Source: Streptomyces sp. NBC_01335
GTDB lineage: Bacteria > Actinomycetota > Actinomycetes > Streptomycetales > Streptomycetaceae
Reading direction: 5' to 3'
Length of the DNA: 64,000 nucleotides
NCBI RefSeq assembly: GCF_035953295.1
Contig: NZ_CP108370.1
Location: forward strand, 3,253,001 to 3,317,000
The position numbers and the translations under genes were made by a program. Shown here one piece after another: positions 15,984 through 21,539 of the stretch; position 1 is the first letter of the stretch, and each line of letters begins with the position of its first letter. The notes under the pieces were generated by a model that did no database searches, was not told the DNA's origin, and was given only the letters and a program-made list of their open reading frames with translations.

Positions 15984-16574
15984 GTGGGTCTGTTCGACGC
16001 GATCCTCGGCCGGAGCAAGCCGGTCCGCCCGGATCTGGATCAGCTCTTCGCCGTACCGTCCGCCGCCCTGACCCTCCAGGCCGCCACCGGCTTCACGCCG
16101 TCCGGCCTGGGCTCGGTCTGCTTCGCAGGGGTGGAGGGCGCGAACTTCGCGCGGCTCCAGCAGGACGTACGGGAGCTGCTGGACGTCGACGCGGCCACGG
16201 ACCGGGGCGGGGTGCCGGTGGAGTTCAGCCAGGACGCGTACGGCTACACGTGGCTGCTCGCCCAGCAGCCGCCGGAGGACACCGCCGCCCTGGTCAACGA
16301 CCTGCACGCGGTGAACACCCTGCTCCAGGACGGCGGCTTCGGCCCGCACCTGCTCTGCTCGCTGATCGGCTTCCGCGACCCGGAGGGCCGCTCACTGGCG
16401 CTGGTGTACCTGTACAAGCGCGGCACCTTCTACCCGTTCGCCCCGGCCCCCGGCGGCGCGGAGAAGCGGGACAACGGCCTGGAGCTCCAGGTCCGCGCCG
16501 CGCTCGGGGACGACCTGCGGGTGGAGAAGGAGCTGGCCCGGTGGTTCCCGGTGTGGGGCGCGCCGGGCCTGTGA
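15984..16574 (+). CDS. pspAB: PspA-associated protein PspAB
   Basis: A 196-residue soluble protein starting GLFDAILGRSKPVRPDLDQL, a characteristic lead of the PspAB family found beside htpX and the PspA system. There are no membrane helices or catalytic motif. The GTG start has a strong GGAGG spaced seven bases. Almost certainly it is co-transcribed with htpX, 34 bases upstream. The role is presumed to be a partner in phage-shock-like membrane repair; the biochemistry is not known. Confidence 0.85.
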   Translation: MGLFDAILGRSKPVRPDLDQLFAVPSAALTLQAATGFTPSGLGSVCFAGVEGANFARLQQDVRELLDVDAATDRGGVPVEFSQDAYGYTWLLAQQPPEDTAALVNDLHAVNTLLQDGGFGPHLLCSLIGFRDPEGRSLALVYLYKRGTFYPFAPAPGGAEKRDNGLELQVRAALGDDLRVEKELARWFPVWGAPGL

Positions 16575-17288: not shown

Positions 17289-18494
17289 ATGTCCGACACC
17301 GCGCCCACTGACGGCAGTTCCGCTCGCCCCGCCGCGATCCCGGCCTCCATCGACCGTACGGAGGACCGTCCCGTCTACGTGATCGGAGGCGGGCCGGGCG
17401 GTCTGGCGGCGGCCGCGGCGCTGCGCACGCAGGGGGTGCGGGTCGTCGTGCTGGAGAAGGCGCCGCGGGTCGGCGCCTCCTGGCGGGGCCACTACGACCG
17501 GCTCCACCTCCACACCACCCGGCGCTGGTCGGCGTTGCCGGGGCTGGCGATGCCCCGGAAGTTCGGCCGGTGGGTGTCCCGGGACGACGTGGTGCGCTAT
17601 CTGGAGAAGTACGCCGCGTTCCACGAGCTGGAAGTGATCACGGGCGTCGAGGTCTCCCGCGTCGACCGGGCGCCGGGCGGGGCCGGGTGGGTGCTCTCCG
17701 CGACCGGCGGGCGGGTGCTGACGGGGCGCGCGGTGGTCGTGGCGACGGGCTTCAACCACACGCCGTACATGCCCGATTGGCCCGGACGGGAGGCGTGGGC
17801 CGGGGAGCTGGTGCACGCGGCGGGGTACCGCAACCCGGCACCGTACGAGGGCCGGAGCGTGCTCGTCGCGGGGATCGGGAACACCGGCGCGGAGATCGCG
17901 GTGGACCTGGTGGAGGGCGGGGCCTCCACGGTGCGGATCGCGGTGCGTACGGTCCCGCACATCGTGCGGCGTTCGACGGCCGGGTGGCCCGCGCAGGCGA
18001 CCGGCATCCTGGTGCGGCGGCTGCCGGTGTGGCTGGTGGACCGGGCGGGCGCGCTGATGGCGAGGGCCGCGGTGCCGGACCTCGCGGCGCAGGGGCTGCC
18101 GCGCCCCACCACGGGGCTGTACTCGCGGGTGAAGGACGGGGCGATCCCGGTGCAGGACGTGGGGCTGATCGACGCGGTGAGGGCGGGGCGGGTGCGGCCG
18201 GTGGCGGCCATCGCCTCGTTCGACGGCGCGGACGTGGTGCTGACGGACGGGACGCGGCTGACGCCGGACGCCGTGATCGCGGCCACCGGCTACCGCCGCG
18301 CCCTGGAGGGGCTGGTCGGGCACCTCGGCGTGCTGGACGGGCGGGGGCGGCCGGTGGTGCACGGTGCCAGGTCTCCGCGCGAGGCTCCGGGGCTGTACTT
18401 CACCGGGTTCTCCAACCCCATCAGCGGAATGTTCCGCGAGATGGCCCGGGACGCGGTGAAGATCGCGCACCGGATCGCCCGAGCGCCTCGCTGA
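17289..18494 (+). CDS. FMO-like flavin-dependent oxidoreductase
   Basis: A 401-residue FAD/NADPH monooxygenase-type protein. The FAD-binding loop is VIGGGPGGLAAAAAL (about 31-45). A second nucleotide site, GIGNTGAEIAVDL, lies near 200. The linker WPGREAWAGELVHAAGYRNP resembles the FMO fingerprint, and AVIAATGYR is the C-terminal ATG motif. The YUC/CzcO-like subfamily is likely; the substrate is unknown. I prefer the ATG at 17289 over the upstream GTG at 17217. A TAGGCT box (17275-17280) sits nine bases before this ATG, as for leaderless genes. Its last 74 bases overlap the convergent NTPase gene. Confidence 0.88.
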   Translation: MSDTAPTDGSSARPAAIPASIDRTEDRPVYVIGGGPGGLAAAAALRTQGVRVVVLEKAPRVGASWRGHYDRLHLHTTRRWSALPGLAMPRKFGRWVSRDDVVRYLEKYAAFHELEVITGVEVSRVDRAPGGAGWVLSATGGRVLTGRAVVVATGFNHTPYMPDWPGREAWAGELVHAAGYRNPAPYEGRSVLVAGIGNTGAEIAVDLVEGGASTVRIAVRTVPHIVRRSTAGWPAQATGILVRRLPVWLVDRAGALMARAAVPDLAAQGLPRPTTGLYSRVKDGAIPVQDVGLIDAVRAGRVRPVAAIASFDGADVVLTDGTRLTPDAVIAATGYRRALEGLVGHLGVLDGRGRPVVHGARSPREAPGLYFTGFSNPISGMFREMARDAVKIAHRIARAPR

Positions 18495-21126
18495 CCGTCG
18501 CGAAGGCGTGGGCCAGGTCCTCCCGCAGCTCCACGGTCTGCGGGTGGTCCAGACCGAGCGCCCGTACGCAGTCGGCGAGGGTCCGCTCCAGCAGGGCGAT
18601 CCCTTCCGCCGGGCGGAAGACCAGGAGGAGGGCCATCGCCACCTCGGTCCGGGACGACAGCGTCTCCGGGTGGTCCGGGCCGAGGATGCGGGCACGGTCG
18701 GCGGCGATCCCCTCGTGCAAGCGCAGTGCCACCCCGGGTTTTCCCGACACCAGGAGGGTCTGCGCGACGCTGTGCCGGGCCACCAGCGTCTCGCGGTGCT
18801 CCTTGCCGAGAAGCAGCGTCATGTCGGCGAGAATCTTCTCGTAGATCGGGAGTGCCCGGGCGTGCTCCCCGGCCTGACCGAGGGCGCCCGCCAGGAAGTG
18901 GCGGGCGCGCACCACGTCGAGGTGGTTCTCGCCGTCCCGCCGGACGCGCTCGGCGAGGTTGTGCTCGTACAGGGCGACGGACTCGCCGTGTCGCTCCATC
19001 CGCTTGTAGGTGTGGGCCAGTTCGTGCCGGAACCAGAGGGTCGTCGCGTGGTCCCGTCCGAGGTGGCGCTCGGCGTCGGCGAGGTTACGGCGGCGCAGGG
19101 TCAGGGCCCGTGCCAGGTTGCCCACCCGCTCGTACGCCTTCGCGAGGTACTCCCGGCAGCGGAGCGTGTCGGGGTGCTGCTCCCCCAGGGAGCGCAGGTG
19201 GCCCTCCAGGTTCCGCCGGTGCAGCGGTACGGCCAGGACGGGGTTGCCGTTGCTCTCGTGGGCGCCGGCGAGGGCCTCGCGCGAAGCGAGGGTGTCGAGA
19301 TGGTCCTCCCCCAGGATCCGGATCCGGTCGGCGAGGACTCCCTCGTGCATCGCCACCGCCTGCCGAGGGTTTCCCCGCTGCTTGTGCATGTCCGCGAGGC
19401 GGGAACGGACTTCCAGGGTGCGGGGGTGCTCCGCGCCACCGGTCCGGAGCGCGTCGGCGAGGGCGCGCTCGAAGAGCGCCACCGCTCCTTCGTGGTCTCC
19501 TCTCCGGTAGGCGGCCGACGCCAGGACGATCCGGAGGGCGAGGACGTCCGGGTGGTCCTCTCCCTGGAGTCTGCGTTTGTTCGCGAGCACCTCCTCGAAG
19601 AGTTCGGTCGCCCGCTCCGGCTCTCCCTGCTCCATGAGGATGCTCGCCAGGTTGCTGCGGATCGTCCAGACCTCCGGGTTGTCCTGGCCCGCGGACCCGG
19701 CTGCATCCGCGCCGAGCAGCGCCTGGGCCGCCCTGCGGAAGAGGTCACCGGCTTGGATCAGGGTGCCCGGTTCCAGCAGGAAGTTCGCCATCCAGGCCAG
19801 CAGGTGGGCCATCGCCTCCGTGTCGTCCTCGGGCGCGCTGTGCCCGGTCAGCGCTTCGGCCTGGGTGAGGAGCGCCCGTTCCAGGGGCCAGGTGCCCGGC
19901 CCCTCCTCGTCGGGAACGGCCCTGATCAGGCTCGCGGTCGCCCGCTCACGGGCGGCCGTGACGGCGTCGGCCGCGCGGTGCGGGTCGTCCGGGTCGGGCG
20001 TCCGGGCGAGGGCCTGCACGAGGCGGTGGACGGAGAGGGTGCCGTCCGCTCCGGCGGTGACCATGCTGTGGGCCACCAGCCGGCCGATCGCCTTGGCGAG
20101 TACGGGAGGCGGGGCGAGCTCGTCCAGCAGCACGCGGGGGATGCGGTCGGGGGCGTACCAGGCGAGGGTGCGCAGCACGTCTCCGGCGAGCGGGGTATCG
20201 GCGAGGCGGTCCAGGGTGACGCGCCAGACGCGGGCCACCGTGCGGTCCGCGTCGGTGGTCTCCGCACCGGTCGCGTACGTCTCGGCGGGCCAGGAGCGCA
20301 GCATGGCGAGGTAGGCGCGCGGGGTGGTGCCGTTCTCGTGGCAGTACGCGGCGGCCTGCTCGACCGCGAGCGCCAGGTGGCCGAGCTCCTCGCACACCTC
20401 GGCGGCCCCGTCGGTGTCGCGGGGCCCGGCCTGGGTGAGGACCCGGCGGAACAGCTCGACGGACTCGGCGGGGGCGAAGACGCCGAGCCGGACGGTGGTG
20501 GCGGTCAGGTGGTGCCAGCCGGTGGCGAGGCGGGTGGTGACCAGGACCCGGCCGCCCCCGCCGAGCCGGTCGAGCAACGGGCGTACGTCGTCCGGGTGGT
20601 TGACGTTGTCGAGGACGAGGAGCCAGTCGTCGTGGGCGGCGAGCCAGGCGAGGGCGCGTTCGCGTTGCAGCTCCTGCGGGAGTCCGGTCAGCCCCGGCTG
20701 GAGGGCGCGGGCGAGTCCGGCGAGCCCCGCCTCGAACCCGGCGGGGCTGTCGGCGCCGATCCACCAGCGGAGCCGGGCCGTGCGGCGCCGGGCGGCCCAG
20801 TGTGCGGCGAGGGCGGACTTGCCGACCCCGCCGAGGCCGCTGACCGCCCGCAGCACCACACCGCCGGGCGCTTCGAAAGCGGCGTCCAGCGCGTCGAGTT
20901 CGGCGGACCGGCCGACGAAGAGGGCTCCGTGCGGCAGGTTCGCGAGCCCGCCGTCCGCCGCGTCGTCGGGGATGGGGCCGTACGCCTCGACCGGTGGCAG
21001 GGTGGCGTTCTCGATGTGCAGGGCGACGGAGTTGAGGATGTCCCGCCCGGCCGCGTTGGATCCCGCGTGGGCGGAGACGGGCGGCGGCTGCGGGGTGTCC
21101 GGGCCGGGCGGCGGCCTGCGCTTCAC
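18421..21126 (-). CDS. STAND NTPase (NB-ARC) with TPR sensor repeats
   Basis: A 901-residue NLR-like protein. Residues 19-35 (AHAGSNAAGRDILNSVA) form a short motif shared with the upstream partner. The NTPase module has Walker A GLGGVGKS (97-104), Walker B LLVLDNV (169-175), the RVLVTTR sensor strand and a GHLALAVEQAA helix equivalent to the GLPLA motif. From about residue 400 to 880 run kinesin-light-chain-like TPRs of about 42 residues, marked by LG.DHP.TL..R. Such proteins sense a ligand with the TPRs and oligomerise on ATP; many act in phage defence or programmed death. The GTG start overlaps the partner's stop (GTGA), and there is no better start. There is no fused effector domain. Confidence 0.9.
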   Translation of the reverse strand: MKRRPPPGPDTPQPPPVSAHAGSNAAGRDILNSVALHIENATLPPVEAYGPIPDDAADGGLANLPHGALFVGRSAELDALDAAFEAPGGVVLRAVSGLGGVGKSALAAHWAARRRTARLRWWIGADSPAGFEAGLAGLARALQPGLTGLPQELQRERALAWLAAHDDWLLVLDNVNHPDDVRPLLDRLGGGGRVLVTTRLATGWHHLTATTVRLGVFAPAESVELFRRVLTQAGPRDTDGAAEVCEELGHLALAVEQAAAYCHENGTTPRAYLAMLRSWPAETYATGAETTDADRTVARVWRVTLDRLADTPLAGDVLRTLAWYAPDRIPRVLLDELAPPPVLAKAIGRLVAHSMVTAGADGTLSVHRLVQALARTPDPDDPHRAADAVTAARERATASLIRAVPDEEGPGTWPLERALLTQAEALTGHSAPEDDTEAMAHLLAWMANFLLEPGTLIQAGDLFRRAAQALLGADAAGSAGQDNPEVWTIRSNLASILMEQGEPERATELFEEVLANKRRLQGEDHPDVLALRIVLASAAYRRGDHEGAVALFERALADALRTGGAEHPRTLEVRSRLADMHKQRGNPRQAVAMHEGVLADRIRILGEDHLDTLASREALAGAHESNGNPVLAVPLHRRNLEGHLRSLGEQHPDTLRCREYLAKAYERVGNLARALTLRRRNLADAERHLGRDHATTLWFRHELAHTYKRMERHGESVALYEHNLAERVRRDGENHLDVVRARHFLAGALGQAGEHARALPIYEKILADMTLLLGKEHRETLVARHSVAQTLLVSGKPGVALRLHEGIAADRARILGPDHPETLSSRTEVAMALLLVFRPAEGIALLERTLADCVRALGLDHPQTVELREDLAHAFATVSEALGRSGARSSPRPGPSRGTFR

Positions 21127-21539
21127 GAGCCGTGCCGGGCGGTCGAGCCGTCGATGTCGCCGCCCGCCGCGTTCGAACCGCCGGTCGCGGTGATCCCCGG
21201 GGCGTCCGTACCCGGTGCGGAGCCGGCACCGGAGGCGGGGCCGGGCGCGGTGTCGTGCGCGGAGGCGGCCCGGATGCTGCCGCGTGCCGCGTTGGAGCCG
21301 CCGGCCGCCCGTACGGGCTCGGGGGCGGGTGCGGGCGCGGTGGGCGTACCGGCGCTGAGCTGCCGGAACGCCACCCCCAGTGCGACCACGCCCACCACCG
21401 AACCGACCACGCCCGCGATCTGGCTCGACCGCTCCAGGTGCGCCGCCGTCACCCAGACCAGCAGTCCCGCCGCCACCGCCGCACTGGCCCCGGCCAGCAC
21501 CCACCAGGTCGTCCTGCTCACTCCGCGTCTCCCCGCCAT
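21123..21539 (-). CDS. Two-TM protein with duplicated NLR-matching motif
   Basis: A 138-residue protein. Two hydrophobic helices (about 12-33 and 41-58) are followed by an Ala/Pro/Gly-rich tail. The tail carries AAGGSNAARGSIRAASA (78-94) and ATGGSNAAGGDIDGSTA (118-134). The same pattern occurs once at the N-terminus of the STAND NTPase encoded immediately downstream, whose GTG overlaps this gene's TGA. ATG at 21539 follows GGAG spaced nine bases. No enzymatic domain is visible. I infer a membrane effector or anchor recruited through the shared motif; a structural role is the alternative. Confidence 0.8.
   Translation of the reverse strand: MAGRRGVSRTTWWVLAGASAAVAAGLLVWVTAAHLERSSQIAGVVGSVVGVVALGVAFRQLSAGTPTAPAPAPEPVRAAGGSNAARGSIRAASAHDTAPGPASGAGSAPGTDAPGITATGGSNAAGGDIDGSTARHGS

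Follow-up and report, generated by a model that had tools for sequence, protein, structure and literature searches.

The founding paper on bacterial amyloid signalling pairs of the BASS type is reportedly that of Dyrka et al. in the Journal of Molecular Biology in 2020. The available text of reports on such pairs describes short motifs that are common to adjacent Bell and NLR genes and occur singly or in two- or threefold (PMC9815663, PMC7889193), with Bell domains, and less often CHAT or TIR, as the effectors (PMC7889193). In the HET-S/NWD2 system, as far as the available text describes it, the receptor has one motif copy (R0) and the effector two (R1 and R2), and amyloid templating activates a membrane-acting domain (PMC12881547). 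Here we describe a pair of overlapping genes of comparable layout from Streptomyces sp. NBC_01335, found in what we call the window, that is, the whole stretch of 64,000 nucleotides that was analysed (contig NZ_CP108370.1, positions 3,253,001 to 3,317,000). One gene encodes a small, predicted two-helix membrane protein and the other a STAND NTPase with TPR repeats, the proposed receptor. A short motif occurs twice in the tail of the former and once near the N-terminus of the latter, and it co-varies between the two genes across related loci, so that we regard the wiring between receptor and membrane protein as well supported.

Both open reading frames (ORFs) and their GTGA overlap lie where an earlier reading of the bare letters, here called the original prediction, had placed them, and the shared motif that it reported is real, with two copies in one product and one in the other (Table 1). 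The membrane protein runs from a basic N-terminus through a helix, a short loop and a second helix into a Pro/Ala-rich linker, followed by the first motif copy, another linker, the second copy and a four-residue end. The receptor opens with an N-terminal stretch that holds the motif and is predicted to be disordered, and continues with the NTPase core, after which TPRs extend to about residue 880. The only tandem DNA repeats in the membrane-protein gene are short GC-rich units, so there is no sign of a recent DNA duplication behind the protein repeat.

Table 1. Features of the gene pair, in window positions
Feature	Position	Strand	Basis
Two-helix membrane protein, 138 amino acids, proposed effector	21123..21539	-	ORF and AlphaFold2 (AF2) helices
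First hydrophobic helix, residues 5-35	21435..21527	-	AF2, pLDDT 83 across residues 11-30
Second hydrophobic helix, residues 41-62, Gly-rich	21354..21419	-	AF2 and alignments
Membrane-protein motif copy 1, residues 78-94, AAGGSNAARGSIRAASA	21258..21308	-	Sequence; conserved in orthologues
Membrane-protein motif copy 2, residues 118-134, ATGGSNAAGGDIDGSTA	21138..21188	-	Sequence; best conserved region compared
GTGA start/stop overlap of membrane-protein and receptor genes	21123..21126	-	Sequence
STAND NTPase with TPR repeats, 901 amino acids, proposed receptor	18421..21126	-	Pfam, NCBIfam, AF2, Foldseek
Receptor motif copy, residues 19-35, AHAGSNAAGRDILNSVA, N-terminus predicted disordered	21022..21072	-	Sequence, AF2
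Receptor P-loop GLGGVGKS, residues 97-104	20815..20838	-	Sequence and alignment
Receptor TPR array, about residues 480-880, proposed sensor	18487..19689	-	Pfam, AF2

The key expectation of the original prediction, that the motif should co-vary in both genes, holds strongly in three kinds of test (permutation, partial Mantel and genomes with two pairs). Motif types differ in both genes together; they include GSNAA, SVAA/SIAA, GAIVA, SIAS/SIVAGRD, (D/E)RSVAAGGD...TGD, GNAIGD, ANTG and I-x-G-x-x-x-Q-V, and some members of the membrane family have three copies (loci L101 and L109). The comparison started from 73 loci, taken mainly from the stronger family matches in the genus with a few from other samples, while weaker matches lie outside the set. 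Removal of six loci with no downstream ORF of at least 200 amino acids within 200 nucleotides, and of one with a one-frame read-through (L110), left 66; the length cut spared L105 and L076 despite their short partners. Dropping 14 loci with no long in-register ORF, including L092, L130 and L138 with significant matches, left 52, and holding identity below 60% left 37 non-redundant loci. In L110 the membrane protein, the receptor motif and the NTPase lie in one frame, either because the genes are naturally fused or because the record contains a frameshift.

Every tail was aligned locally with the N-terminal 160 residues of every partner. Among the 37 non-redundant loci the mean score was 71.6 with the own partner vs 44.2 with the others (z 12.9, p <= 5e-5, 20,000 permutations); controls on the same loci gave z 0.5 for the membrane half and z 0.7 for the reversed tail. 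Tail similarity followed the similarity of receptor N-termini after that of the membrane domain and the NTPase had been removed (partial Mantel r 0.32, p 2e-4), and with tail similarity accounted for, the membrane domain was not associated with the receptor N-terminus (r 0.02, p 0.35). Four genomes carry two pairs each among the 52 loci, and there the own score exceeded the cross score in 8/8 comparisons from the tail and 7/8 from the receptor. Taken singly, 51 of the 66 loci have a tail/partner match at a shuffle p <= 0.05; where several frames were open the best-scoring one was used, which favours matches in this 66-locus test, while the permutation test takes the frames so selected for all loci alike. 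A possible partner start at the same -1 overlap, counted as the first ATG, GTG or TTG close to the stop, is present in 38 of the 52 loci and 30 of the 37. Since this four-base overlap recurs, the membrane protein and the receptor are probably made together.

Pattern searches locate the motif in such pairs. In its own genome a degenerate DNA pattern for G-x-N-A-A has 48 sites, and among the 30 that were fetched only those in this pair, three in number, go on to spell the rest of the motif. With the stricter pattern GxNAAGxD[I/V/M] there are 11 sites in 7 of the 295 genomes of the genus; eight of these fall in four pairs, with one membrane-protein and one receptor copy each, and the remaining three in ORFs resembling neither protein. 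Read backwards as a control, the strict pattern has 2 sites. The receptor family has 24 matches in the own genome, 15 of them with loci, two of which are the window gene; setting aside four with no P-loop among the other 13, nine were read, and none of these nine has such a motif.

Among close orthologues no other part of the membrane protein is conserved as well as the motif: the mean majority fraction is 0.82 in copy 1 and 0.96 in copy 2, compared with 0.76 and 0.79 in the helices and 0.64 and 0.67 in the linkers (means over 20 of 24 rows, omitting P0020 and L020-L022, which have other motif types). Eight further loci, seven from Streptomyces, named species among them, and one from Yinghuangia, were compared, three of them being the loci of genomes G252, G194 and G046. 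All three copies are present in five of the eight and, by regular expression, one tail copy plus the receptor copy in two; the Yinghuangia locus (L229) has none. Two outcomes had been named as damaging to the original prediction, and neither was found: the motif is kept in orthologous pairs, where it co-varies with the partner, and it is not equally frequent in unrelated proteins, given how many strict-pattern sites lie inside such pairs.

Relatives of the receptor number 1192 proteins at E <= 1e-10 among 7994 candidates scored, and the best 120 of these carry varied short N-terminal motifs, 21 of the GxNAA type with the window's own included. One N-terminal motif class, TFTQIGTQINQ (receptors P0080, P0103, P0112, P0117 and others), recalls the RHIM core. 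We surveyed the upstream side of 30 related receptors, leaving out three with no recognisable P-loop; a partner is present in 17 of the remaining 27 and none such in 10. The partners comprise seven of this membrane family (window included), four of a second membrane family and six soluble helical proteins, and the tail/N-terminus score has z >3 in 15 of the 17, those of L186 and L192 being weak (1.4 and 2.1). The upstream partner in L206 looks shortened. Members of the second membrane family have one or two motif copies (L188:4152-4598, L189:977-1462, L197:3891-4340, L202:1196-1495), and a profile comparison relates this family to the first with a probability of 96.5, part of the signal coming from the motifs.

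The soluble partners (L191, L193, L195, L199, L208, L212) are about 140-165 residues long, carry C-terminal motif copies, match no Pfam family above cut-off, and resemble Bell domains, to which they are likened by description alone. A profile comparison showed no homology between them and the membrane protein (hhalign probability 0.4, from four soluble sequences only). A different arrangement is seen in the relative P0125, which carries PF13365, a domain of the trypsin type, and starts with a protease-like stretch. By eye, L198 and L201 look similar to P0125. Because varied partners and a fused domain are found at the same place, the receptor N-terminus looks like an output socket that holds either a fused effector or a motif reaching a separate one. 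It is then reasonable to read the membrane protein as the effector, as the original prediction did, since related receptors carry other partner types in this position. Two of eight partner NTPases tested match the PADLOC profile STAND_TPR (L088, 338 bits; L143, 402 bits), the description of which ties it to a cas1-less I-E system in Streptomyces.

The AF2 model of the membrane protein is poor overall (pLDDT 57), with the two helices clear and, at low confidence, with strands placed at identical motif positions in both tail copies (NAA, I-x and the S/T-A end). All 37 non-redundant family members have two hydrophobic peaks. Their N-terminal piece is net positive in 34/37, a count in which some pieces end at the boundary of the profile match, and their loop in 0/37. 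By the positive-inside rule the basic flank of a membrane helix faces the cytosol, so a net basic N-terminus and a loop that is not basic place the tail probably in the cytosol, on the side of the receptor. Among 19 members no Pfam or NCBIfam match rose above cut-off and PADLOC returned only weak matches (best E 0.012); 70 relatives found in a protein search are nameless or called hypothetical or uncharacterized. The family is present in 101 of 295 Streptomyces genomes, in 24 of 296 genomes of a class sample, where it spans 10 of 105 genera and 10 of the 24 genomes are themselves Streptomyces, and in 8 of 396 genomes of a phylum sample, counts that may include some false weak matches. Weak similarity to the envelope-stress protein PspM shows in three of the 19 members (best E 3.3e-4, 20.6 bits vs a cut-off of 80). 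A gene for PspAB (PspA-associated protein B) lies at 15984-16574, about 5 kb from the membrane-protein gene, itself weakly PspM-like (20.6 bits vs 80). Together the proximity and the weak match possibly mark an envelope-stress link, or else a coincidence.

For the receptor, the original prediction of an NB-ARC/TPR STAND NTPase stands as to the STAND-type fold and the TPR repeats, which give strong Pfam matches (TPR_12/TPR_10); NB-ARC itself is below the Pfam cut-off (14.0 bits vs 23.5), as is AAA_16 (23.5 vs 32.6). The protein combines a P-loop NTPase core with superstructure-forming repeats, as STAND proteins do, and its P-loop residues are mostly invariant or nearly so in a 45-sequence alignment. 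Its AF2 model is good (pLDDT 85, pTM 0.75) except that most of residues 1-40 fall below 50, from which we conclude that a flexible lead probably carries the motif. Ranked by E-value, the Foldseek matches in the Protein Data Bank are headed by the STAND-TPR protein 6mfv (TM-scores 0.27 and 0.36), and among the 50 matches listed Avs3 (8dgc) ranks 15 and Apaf-1 (3sfz) 47. Neither Pfam nor AF2 revealed any other recognisable effector domain in the receptor.

We favour, with moderate confidence, a receptor-effector pair in which a like-with-like motif provides the wiring, that is, a BASS/HET-S-like signalosome with a membrane hairpin as effector. The TPR part of the NTPase would sense a trigger, and ATP-driven oligomerisation, as suggested by the STAND fold, would gather the disordered N-terminal motifs. 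The gathered motifs could nucleate a beta-arch or beta-solenoid stack, which would recruit both motif copies in the membrane protein's probably cytosolic tail and serve as their template. The hairpins so clustered may perturb or perforate the membrane and lead to cell death or dormancy, a response most likely directed against a phage or other intruder. Of the BASS-type reading in the original prediction, then, the layout and the motif co-variation stand, whereas amyloid formation, membrane disruption and defence are what we infer. The STAND_TPR matches among partner NTPases and the patchy distribution are the only hints of defence.

A wider proposal, which we put forward tentatively and hold with less confidence than the wiring into a signalosome, is that these proteins belong to a large undescribed class of amyloid-gated effectors. 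In such a class a pre-inserted hairpin would have its tail motifs templated by the cognate NLR into a beta-solenoid, and ordering on the cytosolic side would cluster the hairpins into a pore. This would be a modular alternative to the Bell and HeLo executioners; a single receptor chassis could take it or, in its place, a soluble helical or protease output, and the several motif classes may insulate parallel pathways in one cell from one another.

Several observations weigh against the receptor-effector reading, some of them touching its specificity. The tail has its own partner as the top match in only 10 of the 37 loci (median rank of the own partner, 3), since loci that share a motif class also match one another, and the specificity between tail and receptor is at the level of the class. 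In genome G268 the receptor of L124 scores 48 with its own tail and 50 with that of the other pair. There is no significant tail/partner match in 15 of the 66 loci; 11 of these have no long in-register ORF directly downstream, and L088, L129, L131 and L076 do have one. Six loci from other genera give weaker results, with z 2.1-2.7 in five and, in the sixth, no downstream ORF of 150 amino acids. As to the amyloid part, AF2 confidence is low within the motif, which is rich in Gly, Ala and Ser and lacks the abundance of Gln, Asn and aromatic residues found in many amyloids. As to defence, PADLOC matched neither the membrane protein nor the receptor, and none of the six neighbouring genes scanned (an M48 peptidase, PspAB, a flavin monooxygenase, two MFS transporters and an AraC-type regulator) is a defence gene.

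The layout is also broken in places. In L105:3491-4492, L076:1878-2687 and L218 the partner is no receptor; it is a small membrane protein that bears the motif at its N-terminus, ahead of hydrophobic helices (the motif match in L076 is not significant, p 0.07). These small partners are possibly a third component or adaptor, and the simple receptor-effector model leaves them unexplained. Eight loci (L087, L089, L101, L103, L108, L109, L139, L141), with tails mostly of the S(V/I)AAGGDIG..STG type, have no receptor directly downstream, and such membrane proteins may answer to unlinked receptors. Two apparent orphans do have a receptor nearby: in L071/L211 (G133:C22) one bearing the motif lies about 1 kb away on the other side, and in L074/L206 (G140:C1) one lies about 1.3 kb on, with a second, shortened membrane protein between.

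The alternative that survives best is that the motif is a device for like-with-like docking, which folds into a small beta-roll and so holds the receptor at the membrane, with the membrane protein as an anchor or envelope-stress co-sensor and not a killer. Sub-threshold matches to Pfam YadA_head in the motif region of L188, L189 and L197 (E 0.019-0.045), and in one of 19 members of the first family (E 0.048), hint that the motif could be one turn of a beta-roll, and the same-register strands modelled with low confidence in both tail copies fit this alternative too. The receptor-less partners of L105, L076 and L218, with their motif and membrane helices, fit a scaffold, and the PspM matches, far below cut-off as they are, point the same way. 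Against docking, no further effector domain is recognisable in the receptor, and a soluble motif-bearing partner, or the trypsin-type domain of P0125, at the same place fits an output better than it fits an anchor. We consider docking rather unlikely.

A BASS-type signalosome might instead serve development, in a hyphal or sporulation cell-fate decision, rather than defence. Its presence in only 101 of 295 genomes, its several motif classes and the matches of two of eight partner NTPases to a CRISPR-associated STAND family fit a conflict system better, and we hold a developmental role to be improbable, even with the family concentrated in a multicellular genus, no defence-database match for the pair and neighbours, as far as scanned, that are not defence genes.

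It was also considered that the receptor belongs to an FxSxx-COOH peptide-modification system and that its motif is incidental, since the receptor matches NCBIfam NF040586 (FxSxx_TPR, of type 'equivalog') with 421 bits at a cut-off of 300. The genomic context largely refutes this. The only above-cut-off FxsB of the genome lies at 1.53 Mb, about 1.7 Mb from the window gene at 3.27 Mb; near that FxsB stands another NTPase (G000:C1:1521802-1524267), which matches NF040586 with 1042 bits, and no radical SAM enzyme is among the six neighbours scanned. Membership is highly improbable, and the NF040586 label probably over-calls the window receptor.

Least probable of all is that the match is a by-product of Gly/Ala/Ser-rich linkers in a GC-rich genome, for although the linkers are rich in Pro, Ala and Gly and the peptide GGS[NV]AAGGD alone matched 126 contig stretches of which 8 encode relatives, chance and composition are ruled out, at the level tested, by the shuffles, the reversed-tail and membrane-half controls, the partial Mantel test and the pattern searches.

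Were the signalosome reading to hold, about a third of the sampled genomes of an antibiotic-producing genus would carry a receptor-triggered membrane switch, whose membrane part goes without a name, or as 'hypothetical', in annotation. One receptor family with membrane, soluble and protease-type outputs would then make the short motif an exchangeable wire of bacterial NLRs. The co-varying motifs, set in one scaffold and including coexisting pairs, offer a natural library for the specificity of prion-like signalling.

Among known systems, SLATT and the CBASS 2TM effectors are alike in being small two-helix membrane effectors predicted to form pores. Their profiles gave no match over threshold (Pfam SLATT_3, E 0.075; NCBIfam SLATT_3, 0.057; PADLOC 2TM Effector, 0.031; RTasSLATT, 0.012), so the known 2TM families were rejected as the identity of the membrane protein on these weak matches, and no nucleotide-signal enzyme is found among the six neighbours scanned. 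Nor did any paper on such a membrane family appear by title or start of abstract, in a comparison that the founding BASS literature lies outside. The signalling principle is known; the two-helix membrane family as effector is the new part, which may be covered in the founding BASS work. Pairs with effector-associated domains (EADs) share the plan of an adaptor copy in a protein of an NTPase system and another in the effector from the adjacent gene; in the available text EADs are described as domains, whereas the element shared here is a motif some 17 residues long, lying in tails predicted to be disordered (Kaur et al. 2020, PMC7159879; Kaur et al. 2021, PMC8195603).

The closest likeness in layout is to BASS pairs, which, in the text available from the reports, place a motif at the NLR N-terminus and again at the C-terminal end of the protein encoded by an adjacent or overlapping gene, fall into several motif families with single, double or triple copies, and occur in multicellular actinobacteria (PMC7889193, PMC8086366, PMC9815663, PMC12261475). 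Here too the motif stands at the N-terminus of an NLR, and a matched motif at the C-terminus of the overlapping gene's product, across loci. The partner differs in consisting of a two-helix membrane domain, about 65 residues long, and a tail, set apart from Bell by description only. From HET-S/NWD2 the pair differs in motif sequence, in an effector that is an integral hairpin and in receptor repeats of the TPR kind, the NWD2 receptor carrying WD repeats; no Pfam match to the HeLo effector domain was found among 19 family members. The copy number of two plus one is that of HET-S in the window pair and in the five further loci with all three copies. As in HET-S/NWD2, so far as the available text describes it, two C-terminal copies in the effector face one N-terminal copy in the receptor encoded next door, with a membrane-acting output that is described there and proposed here (PMC12881547).

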